In this document: positions 19,253 to 25,581 of the stretch, piece after piece
Numbering within the stretch: position 1 is the first letter of the stretch
Layout: every line of letters begins with the position of its first letter
IMG/VR virus record: IMGVR_UViG_3300025806_000202
Span: 1 to 25,581 of that record
DNA from: a virus
Reading direction: 5' to 3' (one strand)
DNA length: 25,581 nt
Program-made: the position numbers and the translations under genes
Notes under the pieces: generated by a model
Database searches by the model: none
Seen by the model: the letters and a program-made list of their open reading frames with translations, nothing else
Told to the model about the DNA's origin: nothing

Positions 19253-19696
19253 CTATCTATTTTTGTCGTTGTTTACGTTTCTTATTGCTGTGATTAATAC
19301 TTTGTCTGTATATGTTTTACCTTTCATTATACTATTTCTAGAACTAGTTGGGATATCTTCATCACCAAGCATAATACGATACATTCTTGCTATTAGTTGT
19401 TTACACTTTAACGAAACTTTGTAGATGTTGTATTTTTGTGTTGTCCTGTTGTAGTTTCTAAAAACTACTACCCAACCGTCTTTTATCAACTTGTTCCAGC
19501 GTCTATTGTCCCAACTGTAAGCGTACGTACCGATTTTAAAATCTTGCTTTGTAAACATTCCCATGCAGTCAAAGTATATAAGTAACTCTAAATCAGCATC
19601 GTTAAGCTTGTTATTTCTACAAGCCCATCTTCTAACTATACGATAGTGTTTAAGTAGGTTTAAGTCCCTAATGTCACTAGCTTCTAGTTTTCTCAC
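19253..19696 (-). CDS. Winged-helix-like regulatory protein (147 aa)
   Basis: This 147-residue basic protein starts MRKLEASDIRDLNLLKHYRI. Residues 35-110 follow a winged-helix layout: a first helix (DADLELLIYFDCMGMFT), a basic recognition-like segment (YAYSWDNRRWNKLIKDGW), then VVVFRNYN-TTQKYNIYKVSL as wing strands and a C-terminal helix (KQLIARMYRIMLG). MarR-like folds look similar. It overlaps groES by 4 nt (ATGA), so it is co-translated with the chaperonin genes. A role in timing of phage transcription is plausible. It ends with TAG, while most genes here end with TAA, which argues against TAG reassignment. Confidence 0.6.
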   Translation of the reverse strand: MRKLEASDIRDLNLLKHYRIVRRWACRNNKLNDADLELLIYFDCMGMFTKQDFKIGTYAYSWDNRRWNKLIKDGWVVVFRNYNRTTQKYNIYKVSLKCKQLIARMYRIMLGDEDIPTSSRNSIMKGKTYTDKVLITAIRNVNNDKNR

Positions 19697-19953
19697 AAAA
19701 CAACTACAATATCCTGTATTTTAATGACAGTGTATTGCTCTTTATCAAATTCTATTCCATGTCCAGCGTGTCTATCATAATAGATTTCATCACCTTCTTT
19801 TAAAGCTTTTATATCATCACTAACTGAATTAATAACGGCTTTAATGTATCTTATATCTTCTCTATCTTTCTTAACCAAAAGTAAACCACCTTTAGTTTTA
19901 TCGCCCGTAACTTTTACAGGCGTTATAATTATATTATTACCTATTGCTTTCAT
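19693..19953 (-). CDS. groES: Phage co-chaperonin GroES (86 aa)
   Basis: This is a co-chaperonin that caps GroEL. It starts MKAIGNNIIITPVKVTGDKT, matching the opening strand of GroES. The mobile loop (about 14-35) carries KTKGGLLLVKK, the GG-plus-hydrophobic tripeptide that binds the GroEL apical domain. LKEGDEIYYDRHAG (51-64) equals the VKVGDIVIFNDGYG strand, and the end IKIQDIVVVL equals the SESDILAIV strand. At 86 residues it is shorter than E. coli GroES (97), and the deletion falls where the roof hairpin would be. T4 gp31 likewise lacks that hairpin. The gene follows groEL, overlapping it by 17 nt, and overlaps the next gene by 4 nt. Confidence 0.88.
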   Translation of the reverse strand: MKAIGNNIIITPVKVTGDKTKGGLLLVKKDREDIRYIKAVINSVSDDIKALKEGDEIYYDRHAGHGIEFDKEQYTVIKIQDIVVVL

Positions 19954-21493
19954 CGATTCTCAAGTTATTGATTACACAATCAGTTGATAAAATCGTTGTA
20001 GCTACGGAAGCTGCGTTACGAAGTGCACTTTTGGTAACTAATAGAGGATCTATAATTCCTTGCTTAATCATATTTACCATATTACCTGTAACCACATTAA
20101 GACCTCTACCTTTACTCTTTGGTAATTCATATTCTAATATACCAGCGTTATCTAATATTGTCTTAAAAGGTGCTCTAATCGCTTCTAGTAGCACTTCTTC
20201 TCCAGCTGACTTAGCAACTATGTTTTGTGAAGCATTTAGTAATGCAATTCCACCTCCTGGAACAATACCTTCTTTAATCGCAGCCTTAGTAGCACATATA
20301 GCATCTTCTACTCGATCTGTTTTTTCTTTTAACTCTATATCAGAATTAGCACCAACTTTAACCACTGCAATCTTAGCTGATAATCTAGCTAATCTCTTTT
20401 CTAAGCGTATTACTGCTCCTGGGTTCTGTGTAGTTGATAAATCTTCTTTAATTTGCTCTATGATCTCTAGAATCTCTTCTGATGAATCCTGAACCTGTAT
20501 AATAGTATCTTTTTCAGTTGTTACTGATCTTATGCAACTACCTAAAAGTTCTGGTTGGATTAAATCCATATCATCGCCGAGATCTTCGTTAATAACAGTT
20601 GCTCCTGTTAATAAAGCTAGATCATCTAGTATTTCTCTTTTATTAATACCAAAAGTAGGTGCATTTATAATGTTTACTTTGATATTACCTTTAGTCTTGT
20701 TCATAGCTAACGTAGAAACAACTGCTGGTTCTACATCTGCAATAATTAATAGAGGTTTGTCATTTTTAATAACATACTCTAAAACAGACTGTATTTGTCT
20801 TACGTTTTCAACAGGTGATTCAATAAGAAGTACCGCAGCGTTTTTTAACTCTGCTGTTCTCTTAACATGGTCAGTCATAAAGTGTTGATTAGTCATACCT
20901 TTATCGTATTGAACTCCATCAACTATTTCAACAACTGTATCAGCTTCAGCTGATTGTTCCATCATCACTACTCCTGTATCTCCTACAGCTCTAAACGCAT
21001 CACCAATAATTTTACCTAGATAAGGATCGTTATTAGTTGATATAGTAGCGATTTGATCAATCATATCGCCTTGAACGCTAGTACTGTTTTTCTCTAGGTA
21101 TGCTATTACTTTATCAGTTGCTTTTTCAATACCGCTTTTTAAGTCTCTAGAACTTACATCAGCTTGAACTTTCTGAGCTTCCTTTAGTACAGCATAAGCT
21201 AGAACTGTTGCGGTAGTTGTACCGTCACCAGCTTCTCTTACTGTTTTACGAGCTGCTTCTTTTAAAAGCGTAGCTCCCATATTTTCTACTGGGTCCAGTA
21301 ATACTATTGTATCGGCAACTGTCACACCATCTTTGGTGATTAACGGGTTACCTGAACCATCTTCTAGTAGTACACATTTACCGCTAGCGCCTAATGTGGA
21401 GCTAACGGCTTTTGTGAGTTTGTTTATTCCTTCAAACACTTTATCTTGAGCTTCTTGCCCAAAAGAAAGATTCTTGACTATTAAGTCTGACAT
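19937..21493 (-). CDS. groEL: Phage chaperonin GroEL (518 aa)
   Basis: This is a full-length group I chaperonin, an ATP-dependent folding ring. ATP-site features are present: TLGASGK at 33-39 (P-loop-like), ITKDGVTVAD with Asp55 (Asp52 in E. coli), the AGDGTTTATV signature at 88-97, VPGGGIAL at 411-418 and RVEDAI with catalytic Asp397 (Asp398). The apical domain (about 190-375) keeps the hydrophobic helices IRQ/VLEYV and VVSTLAMNK that bind substrate and GroES. The C-terminus ends VINNLRIDESNR with no GGM-repeat tail. All catalytic residues look intact, so it should be active. It precedes groES in transcription, the reverse of the usual bacterial groES-groEL order. The leader is A/T-only. Confidence 0.93.
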   Translation of the reverse strand: MSDLIVKNLSFGQEAQDKVFEGINKLTKAVSSTLGASGKCVLLEDGSGNPLITKDGVTVADTIVLLDPVENMGATLLKEAARKTVREAGDGTTTATVLAYAVLKEAQKVQADVSSRDLKSGIEKATDKVIAYLEKNSTSVQGDMIDQIATISTNNDPYLGKIIGDAFRAVGDTGVVMMEQSAEADTVVEIVDGVQYDKGMTNQHFMTDHVKRTAELKNAAVLLIESPVENVRQIQSVLEYVIKNDKPLLIIADVEPAVVSTLAMNKTKGNIKVNIINAPTFGINKREILDDLALLTGATVINEDLGDDMDLIQPELLGSCIRSVTTEKDTIIQVQDSSEEILEIIEQIKEDLSTTQNPGAVIRLEKRLARLSAKIAVVKVGANSDIELKEKTDRVEDAICATKAAIKEGIVPGGGIALLNASQNIVAKSAGEEVLLEAIRAPFKTILDNAGILEYELPKSKGRGLNVVTGNMVNMIKQGIIDPLLVTKSALRNAASVATTILSTDCVINNLRIDESNR

Positions 21494-21505: not shown

Positions 21506-21592
21506 TTAATTTGATTGATTGTAGTAGTGTATCAGAGCTAGTATTATACCAATAAAAGCTATGTATTCAATAGTCTGAACGATGTCTAGCAT
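21506..21592 (-). CDS. Single-pass membrane micropeptide (28 aa)
   Basis: This 28-codon frame reads MLDIVQTIEYIAFIGIILAL then IHYYNQSN. Residues 8-22 form a hydrophobic helix, so it may be a single-pass membrane peptide. Its ATG overlaps the previous gene's stop (TAATG at 21592), as in other pairs in this genome, which supports translation. It ends 12 nt before the groEL start. Its function is unknown; it could also serve only as a translational bridge. Confidence 0.4.
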   Translation of the reverse strand: MLDIVQTIEYIAFIGIILALIHYYNQSN

Positions 21593-21882
21593 TATTCAAA
21601 GGTTTTGACAACTTTAGGACCATCTAAGAAAGCAGTTTTTCTTTTGTAATGCTCAACTGAAGAATCTATTGCTTCTTCAGCACCTTCAATTGTTTCTCTT
21701 CTGGTTACGTCGTGCCAAGTGTCTTTGTCTTTAACATCTTGGTATTCGGTTTGGTAGAATCCATTTGCTAGTTGTACTATCCTCCATTTAGATTTTTCAG
21801 ATAAGTGTTTCCATAGCTCTATGGTTTCTTGGGTTACTTGTGGTTGACTATTCCACGATTGAGTCTGGTAAAAAAACGTCAT
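21592..21882 (-). CDS. Conserved marine-phage protein of unknown function (96 aa)
   Basis: This 96-residue protein starts MTFFYQTQSWNSQPQVTQET. It contains WRIVQLANGFYQTEYQDV, TRRETIEGAEEAIDSSVEHY and ends in GPKVVKTFE. I recall the combination NG-YQTEY and TRRETIEGAE-AID-SIEHY-KK with GPKVVKTFE as a compact family found in marine phages. It is soluble, with no catalytic motif. It is the first gene after the longest gap in the window and probably leads the chaperonin transcript. The role is unknown. Confidence 0.6.
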   Translation of the reverse strand: MTFFYQTQSWNSQPQVTQETIELWKHLSEKSKWRIVQLANGFYQTEYQDVKDKDTWHDVTRRETIEGAEEAIDSSVEHYKRKTAFLDGPKVVKTFE

Positions 21883-22003: not shown

Positions 22004-23125
22004 TTAAATAGGTGGATATAAATTTGGCGCGGGTGCTGTTCCTACACCTAAACCGTAGATATTTGAAGGATTTGTGGTTGGAGCACTCCATGTTATACCG
22101 TCAGTTGAAGTAACTACATAATCATTAGAACCTCCAACAGCTATAAAAATCTCCCCGTTCCATGAAACATCGTATAAAAGTTCCTCTCCAGGAGTACCTC
22201 TACCTGTCCAATTTATGCCATCTGTAGAAGTGGCTATATTGTTACTTCCATATCCACAAGCAACCCATATTGAACCATTCCAAGCAACACCCAAGCCTCT
22301 ATCTGTCAATGGAGATGATATAACCGCAGTCCATCCTGACGTTCCAGCTGAATTAGTTGTATAAGCTATTGAAGTTCCTCCACTGCCCGAATAACCAACA
22401 GCAACCCACATTGAACCGTTCCAAGCAACATCATTTCCATCATTTGCAAACACCTGCCCCTGCCCGGTCCAAGTTGTTCCATTTGTTGAGGTAGCTATAG
22501 TATGGTTACCGCTTCCAACAACTCCACCACCGTTAGATTGAGCTACTACCCAAGTAGATCCGCTCCACGCAGCTTTGTGAATCGTTCCATTTCCACCAGC
22601 TGCAGTCCAACTTATACCATCTGTAGACTTGTAAATACCTGGAGCATTAGACCCATAACCACACGCAAGCCAATAAGAACCGTTCCAAGATACTGAGTTT
22701 CCCCAAACGTTAAAAATTGCTCCTAATCCTGTCCAATTTATACCATCTGTAGAATAAGCTAGAGAGTTAGTTCCACGCCCAGCAGCAACCCACATTGAAC
22801 CGTTATAAGCACTTTTATTTCCGTAAATAGAAAAAATGCTATTACCTAATCCAGTCCAATTAATTCCATCTGCAGAAAAAATTAAAGTATTTGATCCACT
22901 AGCACCTACTACGATCCCACTGTATGGTACAAAATAAGTAATACCATACCATTTAGTTCCATCGAAGTATTCTACTTTATCTGTAGTAGAGTTGAATATC
23001 ATTTCACCTACAGATAAACCAGTCATAGCGATTCTTTCTGTAGTTGTCATAACAGGTAGCTGCGTAGCTGAAGTTGAATCTCCTAGATTAAATAATTCAG
23101 GGTTTGTTATTTTTGTATTTGCCAT
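22004..23125 (-). CDS. Tail-fibre adhesin with seven-bladed Asp-box beta-propeller (373 aa)
   Basis: This is a tail fibre or receptor-binding protein. The N-terminal module (1-65) starts MANTKITNPELFNLGD and ends DGTKWYGI. From about 70 to 355 there are seven repeats of roughly 38-48 residues, each with a WNGS-WVA-G strand and an Asp-box-like S-x-D-G-x-x-W turn: SADGINW 84-90, STDGINW 125-131, STDGISW 167-173, STNGTTW 213-219, a degenerate copy near 257-265 (ending TSGW), STDGINW 300-306 and STDGITW 340-346. Asp boxes occur in sialidase- and sortilin-type propellers, where they lie on the blade edge. No sialidase Arg triad was found, so it is more likely a binding than cleaving module. It ends in a short VGTAPAPNLYPPI tail. 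Confidence 0.8.
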   Translation of the reverse strand: MANTKITNPELFNLGDSTSATQLPVMTTTERIAMTGLSVGEMIFNSTTDKVEYFDGTKWYGITYFVPYSGIVVGASGSNTLIFSADGINWTGLGNSIFSIYGNKSAYNGSMWVAAGRGTNSLAYSTDGINWTGLGAIFNVWGNSVSWNGSYWLACGYGSNAPGIYKSTDGISWTAAGGNGTIHKAAWSGSTWVVAQSNGGGVVGSGNHTIATSTNGTTWTGQGQVFANDGNDVAWNGSMWVAVGYSGSGGTSIAYTTNSAGTSGWTAVISSPLTDRGLGVAWNGSIWVACGYGSNNIATSTDGINWTGRGTPGEELLYDVSWNGEIFIAVGGSNDYVVTSTDGITWSAPTTNPSNIYGLGVGTAPAPNLYPPI

Positions 23126-23136
23126 GTTTTATTTAA

Positions 23137-24015
23137 TTATGTTGTTCCTGAACCTATAGCGTGTAAATTTGCGACCTCTGTTGAAGTTAAAACAACATCG
23201 TATACTTGAATTTTACTAATTTCTCCACTAAAAAACTGCTGATTGCCATCAAGATAAACTCCACTTAATATACTCTGTGTCATATTTCTAGCTGGTGCTC
23301 CTGTTTGTGAACCCGTTTGGGTGCCGTCTAAATATATTTTCATATCACCTGTAGATGAAACAGTTCCAACCACATGGTGCCAAGTATTGTTAGTCATAGC
23401 AACAGACGATTGAGCAGACACTGATGAACCGTTTAATCTGATTGTAAACACAGGGCTTGCATTAGCATAGTTAACTAAATGAAAATAATTATTATTACTG
23501 CCGGAACTATAATAACCTTGACTTATAAAATTATTATAAGTTGAGACATTATTACAATTAACCCATGCGGCGAAAGATGCGTTTGATGTGTTTGTTGAGT
23601 AAGAAGTGGTTACCTTAGAACTTGAGCCGTTAAAAGATAGGTATCCGTTACTATAAGTCGTGTTTGATAAAGTTGCGTTATTAGAATTCCCACTTATATC
23701 AAACCAAGTGCTTCCAGTTTGCGGGGGTGGATATGAAGTAGCATCACTGGCACTGTAAACTATTTGAGCACCTGCCGGCAATGGATTATCAGCAGACTCT
23801 GTAGCTGCAAAATACTGCCACGCAGTTCCGTTGTAATGTGTTAAAGCACTAGCAGAGCTATCTACAGTTTCTTCAGTGTCATTTCTAATCATACCTTGCT
23901 CAACAGTTGCTCCAATAGGTTGATTGCTATTATCACCACTTGGTATTTTTAAACCCGGTAAGCTTGTTGCTTTATCAAAGTCTGCTACAGGTGTTGTTAC
24001 TTTAGTAATTGCCAT
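23137..24015 (-). CDS. Tail-fibre adhesin with LamG/concanavalin-like domain (292 aa)
   Basis: This 292-residue protein starts MAITKVTTPVADFDKATSLP. The N-terminal module (1-70, ending NGTAWQYF) resembles those of the two adjacent adhesins. Residues about 105-285 show a LamG-3 jelly roll: SFAAWVN (147-153), VFTIRLNG (189-196), NNTWHHVVGTVSSTGDMKIY then LDG (209-231) and FFSGEISKIQVYDVVLTSTE (261-280). LamG folds bind glycans or proteins. It is likely a receptor-binding or ancillary tail protein. The gap to the next gene is 11 nt. Ligand is unknown. Confidence 0.8.
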   Translation of the reverse strand: MAITKVTTPVADFDKATSLPGLKIPSGDNSNQPIGATVEQGMIRNDTEETVDSSASALTHYNGTAWQYFAATESADNPLPAGAQIVYSASDATSYPPPQTGSTWFDISGNSNNATLSNTTYSNGYLSFNGSSSKVTTSYSTNTSNASFAAWVNCNNVSTYNNFISQGYYSSGSNNNYFHLVNYANASPVFTIRLNGSSVSAQSSVAMTNNTWHHVVGTVSSTGDMKIYLDGTQTGSQTGAPARNMTQSILSGVYLDGNQQFFSGEISKIQVYDVVLTSTEVANLHAIGSGTT

Positions 24016-24016
24016 A

Positions 24017-25102
24017 TTATGCGAATGTTATTGTGCCTGTTCCTGAAGTGAATGTTTCTATTTTGTAACCTAATACAGATGTGGATACAGAGCTAATAAG
24101 TGAACCGCCTTTAGCAACAGTGTAGTTTTCTGGGTATCTAAGTATTACAACTCCAGAGCCGCCAGCAGCACCGGTTCCAGTGTTGTTTGCATTATGGCAT
24201 CCTCCACCACCACCACCGCCTAAACCATTTGTTCCAGCTGTTGGAGGTAGGTTACTTCCGTTAGTATAGGTTCCTCCATTTCCACCACCGCCCGCTCCAC
24301 CTTGAGGCGTGTTAGGAAAAGCTACCGCAGCGTTCATAGCGCCAGCTCCACCACCAGCGTAGTAAAGGTTGGTTCCTGTTATAGATGATTGAATTCCATC
24401 ACCACCTTTTCCAACTATAGCTGGATCTGTACCTGAAGATAAACCAGTAGCGCTTGCTCCACCACCTCCACCAGCACAGTAATAAGTACTACTTGTTGAT
24501 GCAGCACCTGCAAAGCCTTGTATTGGGCTACTAGTTCTAGCTCCTCCAGCATGGATACCACTTCTGCTAGCTCCTCCGCCTGAGCCTCCAGGCCCACCAG
24601 CAGCTTCACTACCACCATAACCACCTCCTGTAGCTAGTACACTTGCACGTGCTGGCGTCATATCTAATTCAGAGTTGCCACCGGAGCTTGTTGCACTTCC
24701 GCCTAATCCTACTGTTACTTCATAATTAACACCTTGAACTGCTGTTGTTATGGTTGCAGCCACCTGTTGATTTCCACCGCTAATGTTACCAGAGCCAAAA
24801 GACGTTAGCATTCCACCGGCACCGCCACCACCTGCATAATAATAGTTTCCACCGCCACCTCCACCAGCAACCACTAAATAGTCAACAGTTAACGGCACAG
24901 AAGTAGATCCAGCTTCTTCTAAAAACTGCCAACCAGTAGAAGTACAAACTTCAACTTTGTTTTCAGTTGTATTCTCTCGGATAGAACCAAGGGTAGATGC
25001 GTCGCACGTTGGTTGTTGAGCGGTAGTACCTTTAGCTATAACTAAACCTCCGGTATCTTGACTCATATCCACAACGCCAGTTGAAACTTTAGTTAATGCC
25101 AT
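24017..25102 (-). CDS. Glycine-rich tail-fibre tip protein (361 aa)
   Basis: This 361-residue protein starts MALTKVSTGVVDMSQDTGGL. The N-terminal module (1-65, ending STGWQFLEEAG) matches its neighbours in pattern. Residues 73-85 read DYLVVAGGGGGG, followed by a Gly-rich region (about 79-317) with Gly runs, and then GGSGVVILRYP (314-324) and a short beta C-terminus. The VVAGGGGGG start and GGSGVVILRYP end are typical of the glycine-rich receptor-binding family seen in many marine phages; polyglycine-II sandwich folds are known in phage S16 gp38. It is probably a tip that touches the host surface. Low-complexity Gly codons create open frames in other frames, which I discount. Confidence 0.8.
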   Translation of the reverse strand: MALTKVSTGVVDMSQDTGGLVIAKGTTAQQPTCDASTLGSIRENTTENKVEVCTSTGWQFLEEAGSTSVPLTVDYLVVAGGGGGGNYYYAGGGGAGGMLTSFGSGNISGGNQQVAATITTAVQGVNYEVTVGLGGSATSSGGNSELDMTPARASVLATGGGYGGSEAAGGPGGSGGGASRSGIHAGGARTSSPIQGFAGAASTSSTYYCAGGGGGASATGLSSGTDPAIVGKGGDGIQSSITGTNLYYAGGGAGAMNAAVAFPNTPQGGAGGGGNGGTYTNGSNLPPTAGTNGLGGGGGGGCHNANNTGTGAAGGSGVVILRYPENYTVAKGGSLISSVSTSVLGYKIETFTSGTGTITFA

Positions 25103-25105
25103 TTA

Positions 25106-25312
25106 TTATAGTGTTGGTTTTGTGTCTGGAAAGTCAGAAGTATCAGTCCAATCTCTTAATCTAGCTCTATAATTATAATACAAAGGTCTTTCTGGATGGT
25201 CATCTAACATTATTACCCAATCAGTATCTTTTAACTCTTGGTCTCTCCACGCTTTTTCTTCTACTTTCTTTGCTGCAATTTCTTCTTCTGTCATTTGTAT
25301 TTCTTCACTCAT
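25106..25312 (-). CDS. Tail fibre assembly chaperone-like protein (68 aa)
   Basis: This 68-residue protein starts MSEEIQMTEEEIAAKKVEEK. The core WRDQELKDTDWVIMLDDHPE then LYYNYRARLRDWTD matches the R-x-x-EL-x-x-TDW and YR-x-LRD pattern of phage tail fibre assembly chaperones (Phage_tail_APC type, PF16778 from memory). An acidic helical N-terminus precedes it. It sits at the head of the adhesin block, 3 nt from the glycine-rich fibre, as expected for a fibre assembly helper. It may act on any of the three following fibres. Confidence 0.75.
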   Translation of the reverse strand: MSEEIQMTEEEIAAKKVEEKAWRDQELKDTDWVIMLDDHPERPLYYNYRARLRDWTDTSDFPDTKPTL

Positions 25313-25319
25313 AATAGTA

Positions 25320-25581
25320 TTATTTTAGTTTGATAAATAAAGGTTGTCCTGAACCGCTAGAATCTGTTCTTGCTGTTGAGTCTCCATAGGTTTGGGCGTA
25401 ATTGTAGAAATTATTACTGTTTGCGTCTTTAACTGTAAAAGTTCCTGACGCATAAGCTACATACTGCGGACTATTAGTTTGTGTAGTTGTTATAATTTCC
25501 GCCCCAGTAGCTACTCCCGAAGGAGTGAATTGAATAATACATCCCGACCCATCGTCTTTTCTCCCTGTTATCCAGATATTA
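25320..25581 (-). CDS. C-terminal end of a structural/fibre protein, partial (start beyond right edge)
   Basis: The last 86 codons of a minus-strand gene end at TAA 25320-25322. The visible protein begins NIWITGRKDDGSGCIIQFTP and ends with SSGSGQPLFIKLK. It is Ser/Thr/Asn-rich and beta-like, similar in composition to the following fibre genes. It lies 7 nt ahead of the tail fibre assembly chaperone-like gene, so it is probably a further virion fibre or spike. The missing N-terminus prevents a better call. Confidence 0.6.
   Translation of the reverse strand, partial: NIWITGRKDDGSGCIIQFTPSGVATGAEIITTTQTNSPQYVAYASGTFTVKDANSNNFYNYAQTYGDSTARTDSSGSGQPLFIKLK

Follow-up and report, generated by a model that had tools for sequence, protein, structure and literature searches.

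A tandem array of three adhesin-type genes with a common module and exchangeable domains in a marine bacterial virus

Three adhesin-type genes lying head to tail in a marine bacterial virus raise the question of whether they share one part, what that part would do, and whether the remainder of each protein can be exchanged. The DNA analysed (25,581 nucleotides, hereafter called the window) corresponds to virus record IMGVR_UViG_3300025806_000202 of IMG/VR (25.6 kb). Its terminase was 62% identical to that of the uncultured podovirus MW202828 and about 44% identical to those of Flavobacterium phages, and matched 87 phage records, including Cellulophaga, Tenacibaculum and Maribacter phages. From these relatives we infer the host group, and since it is drawn from terminase similarity the assignment stays a putative one. 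On the minus strand the genes followed in the order cut C-terminal fragment, small chaperone, adhesin slots 1, 2 and 3, a 96-aa ORF, a GroEL-like and a GroES-like gene (Table 1); the three adhesin ORFs were intact and separated by gaps of 1 to 11 nt. The GroEL-like (518 aa) and GroES-like (86 aa) proteins are encoded at 19693-21493, directly downstream of the array, and MW202828 likewise carries a groEL/chaperonin-10 pair; we take the two names to be correct from the sequence itself and from that annotated pair. The 96-aa ORF was kept between array and groEL in most of the close relatives compared, had no match in Pfam and no more than a weak one in PHROG (E 0.005), and is possibly a dedicated adhesin assembly factor. 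The element at the right edge (AAAACAAGTGATAATATAAAACATAG) may serve as a promoter of the chaperonin genes; its core was present in 24 of 215 loci.

Table 1. Positions of the adhesin array and its flanking features in the window
Feature	Position	Strand	Basis
Conserved ORF, 96 aa, between array and groEL	21592..21882	-	ORF list, relatives' loci
Conserved element just downstream of slot 3, right edge of exchanged segment	21944..21969	-	Single-copy within window
Slot 3 adhesin: module + 7-bladed propeller-like domain (predicted), 373 aa	22004..23125	-	ORF, relatives, AlphaFold model
Slot 3 module, 63 aa; port A empty in window; 8-site recombinant tract vs L083	22937..23125	-	Profile matches, DNA comparison
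Port A seam of slot 3, ~residues 35-39; relatives with Gly-rich insert of ~270-310 residues	23009..23023	-	DNA/protein comparison
Slot 2 adhesin: module + LamG/ConA-like domain, 292 aa	23137..24015	-	ORF, Pfam, relatives
Slot 2 module, 71 aa; port A empty	23803..24015	-	Profile matches
Slot 1 adhesin: module + Gly_rich_2 domain, 361 aa	24017..25102	-	ORF, Pfam, same slot in relatives
Slot 1 module, 63 aa; port A empty	24914..25102	-	Profile matches
PF16778 tail-fibre chaperone, 68 aa; unlike L083 in the 5' two-thirds (25172-25312), with the shared edge in the 3' part	25106..25312	-	Pfam, DNA comparison
C-terminal fragment of upstream gene, cut by window end; at position of slot-0 fibre gene	25320..25580	-	Position; identity putative

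The three ORFs named in the first-pass annotation were recovered on the minus strand, with products beginning MALTKVS, MAITKVT and MANTKIT (slots 1, 2 and 3), and the tryptophan-aromatic pair proposed to end their common part was present in each (TGWQFL, TAWQYF and TKWYGI, respectively). The tips had been read as unrelated glycine-rich, LamG and propeller structures, and all three identities were borne out by Pfam or by AlphaFold with fold search. The slot 1 tip matched Gly_rich_2 (PF21722; E 1e-16, 62.1 bits, curated cut-off 24.3) and the slot 2 tip Laminin_G_3 (PF13385; E 2e-21, 77 bits, curated cut-off 27.6). For the slot 3 tip no Pfam match above cut-off was obtained; its AlphaFold model showed a propeller with good confidence (pLDDT 74 on average and 74-91 in most blocks of the tip) and had 824 structure matches at E ≤ 0.001, the top match among solved structures being 7bid (E 1.4e-8, TM 0.59 by query length), a designed 7-bladed protein, and the tip is thus predicted to be a seven-bladed beta propeller. 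In Pfam searches the three adhesins matched Gly_rich_2 and LamG-type families, with otherwise weak matches only and no tailspike, enzyme or anchor domain; a tblastn comparison of slot 1 with named phages found nothing. These domain types would fit a role in host receptor binding.

Sequence comparison confirmed a module of about 62 residues as common to all three adhesins, in line with the shared part that had been suggested for the first ~65 residues. MAFFT alignment of the three N-termini gave 11 invariant columns; cross-matches between single sequences were borderline (phmmer E 0.003-0.007, slots 1 vs 2), and protein identity between slots was about 20-30%. Profiles built for the slots from 18, 22 and 22 relatives aligned to each other with hhalign scores of 103.6, 100.0 and 70.3 (E 4e-22, 1e-21 and 9e-15), against at most 15.8 in a column-shuffle control (50 per pair), and still scored 80, 83 and 48 after removal of the first 7 residues. 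Pooled pN/pS was 0.12 and 0.40 in the N- and C-half of the slot 3 module, 0.46 in slot 1 and 0.42 in slot 2; with values below 0.5 in all modules, the module protein itself is constrained. Its modelled fold was not confident (pLDDT mostly under 60; the two AlphaFold models were of monomers, with 10-row alignments each), no Pfam family matched the modules above cut-off, and a phmmer search of one module against the PDB gave chance matches only.

The conservation of the array was assessed in relatives found by a groEL scan, of which the best 80 of 140 were used; 41 of these 80 loci had at least 4 kb upstream. The relatives are without exception metagenomic contigs, and single junctions could be assembly errors, which is unlikely overall given several independent in-frame cases. 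Three consecutive module genes in the same order preceded groEL in 22 of the 41 loci (several of the 22 being near-duplicates), in agreement with the proposed tandem arrangement of three binders. Three further loci had two module genes (cut at the contig start), 3 had one weak match and 13 had none; because of these last two groups, the array is dispensable at the lineage level. In the array-less loci L105 and L106, a 2140-aa fibre gene (L105:3115-9537) stands in place of the whole array, and L105 extends to the conserved 3' edge seen in array-bearing loci.

A tree of 62 modules (18 from slot 1, 22 each from slots 2 and 3; 22 hand-picked genomes, 64 columns) required 2 label changes for the three slots, which is the minimum and was equalled in none of 200 shuffles, so no module was seen to wander between slots. 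Slots 2 and 3 each formed one side of a branch (99/92 and 89/97, respectively) and slot 1 did not; the inner forks were weak because of the 64 columns. Since the modules split into three slot groups, they look like three fixed addresses rather than one common site. The single virion attachment site proposed in the first-pass annotation is not supported: over the 22 genomes the modules of slots 1-3 were separate lineages, which three different positions or partners would lead one to expect, and the trio was fixed in number and order.

The module receives domains at two positions: port B, after the tryptophan-aromatic pair, where domains follow, and port A, a split near residue 34 (profile position ~28-37) that was occupied by 204-774 residues in 27 of the 62 genes (7 of 18 in slot 1, 6 of 22 in slot 2 and 14 of 22 in slot 3), a module being counted as split when it gave two separate profile matches in one ORF. 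It was whole and N-terminal in 28 of 62 genes, and in 7 of 22 slot-2 genes the entire module is internal, being preceded by a Gly-rich domain; a strictly N-terminal module, as first assumed, is not supported in view of these insertions and preceding domains. Pfam searches of 10 of the 62 proteins placed Gly_rich_2, LamG, DUF7483 and lactonase-type propeller domains at the ports or ahead of the module. Slot 2 of L120 (1299-3041) and of L129 (5981-7741) ends right after the second half of the module, with no tip, and port A of L129 slot 2 holds Gly-rich and LamG domains; port B can therefore be empty with port A filled. The predicted fold of the Gly-rich insert of L085 aligned to the Bxb1 tail tip (9d93, Z 12.7) and to the Pam3 fibre (7ypx, Z 12.6, 3.0 A over 172 residues), and Foldseek alone ranked 7ypx first at an E of only 0.016.

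The explanation that we favour, with a probability of roughly 0.7, is that of three co-present adhesin-type subunits with slot-specific addresses, domains at two ports and conserved edges for exchange. Three different subunits would probably sit together on the virion, each addressed to its slot by its first ~34 residues together with a small beta hairpin ending in the tryptophan-aromatic pair, and each would carry receptor-binding-type domains (Gly-rich, LamG, DUF7483, propellers) at the seam (port A) and at port B. Conserved module DNA, together with conserved sequence past the last stop codon, would provide homologous edges for the exchange of whole domains between genomes, slots and ports. 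A more specific form, in which the seam-split address acts as a clip, so that each of the three subunits bears one lectin-like domain in the seam and one after it and the six ports are interchangeable sockets, is put forward tentatively, at just short of an even bet.

The strongest competing reading, for which we would allow a somewhat worse than even chance, takes the module to be a generic joint between fibre domains, with attachment achieved by other means such as the Gly-rich domain or partner fibres. It accords with the wide occurrence of the module, which matched 39 PHROG families at positions varying from N-terminal to C-terminal (phrog_1325 was matched by 18 of 23 modules, best E 8e-14), and a search with the module of one relative matched 350 phage records at E ≤ 0.1, most of them from cyanophages. 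In a PDB profile search including the cyanophage rows, the C-half matched near the C-terminus of Gp49 (9d83, E 8e-5); without these rows Gp49 alone was found, at E 0.53. A weak match lay near the C-terminus of tailspike protein 3 (5w6f, E 0.07). Other fibre proteins, too, contain the C-half, either internally or at their end, with the module lying within the upstream long fibre of L089 and L095, and for this reason the C-half may be a generic joint rather than an address; the internal modules of slot 2, and the C-terminal ones of L120 and L129, point the same way. The N-half, however, is slot-specific and, in slot 3, strongly constrained (the pN/pS of 0.12 given above), and the slots never mix in the tree, a separation that a joint would not need.

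Under another reading the three genes encode alternatives for a single receptor binder, only one being mounted per virion; this would agree with the module being common to all and with related domain types occurring in all three slots. The constant number and order of the genes, their slot-specific modules and their intact, closely spaced ORFs argue against such a reading, which we consider unlikely, and for three different subunits.

Exchange of tips, which had been proposed for the window, was seen directly when relatives were searched: unrelated tips occur on modules that are nearly identical, and one nearly identical tip occurs on modules that have diverged. The slot 3 N-half of the window was 97% identical to those of L174, L085 and L088, the tips having no match at E 1e-5, and L174 and L100 have tips that are 95% identical in amino acids on modules at 68% and 64%. 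A module joined to unrelated variable parts in close relatives, the hallmark of modular phage receptor-binding proteins, is thus found here. The edges are sharp at the DNA level: between the window and L085 both module halves were 94% identical, the tip showed no similarity, and 94% identity resumed from 21 nt past the stop codon. This right edge, 21 nt past the slot 3 stop (window 21983), was found in 7 of 13 compared loci; L083 was alike throughout, and the other five resumed similarity at other points. Complete domains have also changed slot and port, at DNA identities of 87-98%. The port A domain of slot 1 in L119 is the port B domain of slot 3 in L121 (98% over 605 nt; other long aligned stretches 89-99% alike), the port B domain of slot 1 in L127 is part of port A of slot 2 in L129 (96% over 614 nt; backbones mostly 74-85% alike), and the port A domain of slot 3 in L085 is the port B domain of slot 1 in L088 (87% over 749 nt). 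Homologous recombination would be the probable route.

A finer trace was found between the window and L083, which were 99.67% identical over 6.6 kb from the 3' end of the chaperone gene onward. Of 22 differences, 9 lay at the chaperone edge and 8 of the other 13 within a 69-bp part of the slot 3 module (binomial 2e-13 for any one given stretch, uncorrected for the ~95 stretches), and in this tract L083 mostly has the bases of L174 and L089. If the module were no more than homologous DNA at which recombination is anchored, without a structural role, one would likewise expect sharp edges of exchange at the modules and a recombinant tract inside one of them; the low pN/pS in all modules, lowest in the slot 3 N-half, and a between-slot protein similarity too low for DNA homology make this quite improbable. 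Variation by a diversity-generating retroelement, as in Mtd, was rejected as having next to no chance: one of 23 modules gave an Mtd_N match, below threshold (E 0.04, 14.3 bits vs cut-off 26.3), and it is whole domains that are replaced, the window-L083 differences being not A-specific and mostly in the module rather than the tip.

The chaperone gene at the head of the array had been linked to the three adhesins. Its family stands (Phage_tail_APC, PF16778; 27.4 bits, curated cut-off 26.6), and the link is not supported. Upstream of the chaperone 3' part the window is unrelated to L083 (window 25172-25580; L083:372-1200), the junction lying inside the chaperone gene, and therefore its 5' part and, by position, the preceding fibre gene appear to have been exchanged together, with adhesins that remained 99.7% identical. 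In relatives this slot-0 fibre gene begins MSDLTDFFP..., the start MS..T(D/E)FF being conserved in several. Because it is exchanged with the fibre gene, and because phage Pam3 has the same order of fibre gene and chaperone, again with a variable N-part and a conserved C-part (gp24 and gp25; parts covered of PMC9608196; 7ypx), the small chaperone probably serves the upstream fibre and not the three adhesins.

Several elements of this organisation are known: receptor binders built as mosaics, binders in tandem whose N-terminal parts are conserved, and exchange at conserved motifs. In T4-type phages, recombination between conserved motifs of gp37/gp38 swaps adhesin specificity; the array resembles this in exchanging at conserved motifs, which in T4-type phages lie within one adhesin gene and here are spread over three genes and two ports. 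The cyanophage ACG-2014a (L214:8237-15005) has seven consecutive module-bearing genes downstream of an annotated short tail fibre, all annotated as hypothetical, in which, compared with the array, the module match starts 13-42 residues in and some genes have two copies. In the Ackermannviridae branched tailspike complex (TSP1-4), receptor binders in tandem each have N-terminal assembly domains of their own, which are conserved, and C-terminal binding parts that can be exchanged, and conserved 5' ends act as recombination sites (PMC11414711). The array is similar in having several tandem binders, each with its own conserved part and exchangeable binders; it differs in its lack of recognised tailspike or XD/anchor domains, in modules of only ~62 residues, in a further port within the module, and in packaging genes related to flavobacterial phages. 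Pam3 gp24, in the parts of its description covered, shares with the array a Gly-rich domain of similar predicted fold (the Z of 12.6 above) and the fibre-then-chaperone order; Pam3 has one fibre with a helical N-terminal domain, whereas in the array the chaperone is followed by three adhesins and the Gly-rich domain can move as a unit. Domain mosaicism of phage receptor-binding proteins (PMC10684548) and mosaic, hypervariable host-recognition proteins in metaviromic islands of marine phages (PMC3909814) have been reported, and the parts of these surveys covered do not describe fixed slots with two ports. Nor was a three-slot array or split module described in the titles and abstract openings searched, a scope outside which most subscription journals fall; as far as this literature goes, an array of three fixed slots with a port in a split module is a new form of the known modular receptor-binding proteins.

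The array represents a natural, repeatedly used plan for placing different binding domains on one scaffold with the reading frame unbroken and with sequence edges that are exact. For each gene it leads to a prediction of the part that determines position and the part that determines specificity, and metagenomic adhesin tips can therefore be compared separately from their backbone. The evolution of adhesion also becomes readable in an abundant, largely uncultured group of marine phages (at least 600 rows in a terminase scan for relatives). If the two-port clip is real, a common marine phage lineage would shuffle complete receptor-binding domains, giving combinatorial, multivalent host recognition, and the swapping of whole sugar-binding-type domains around a fixed piece may be how such viruses change their adhesion targets.
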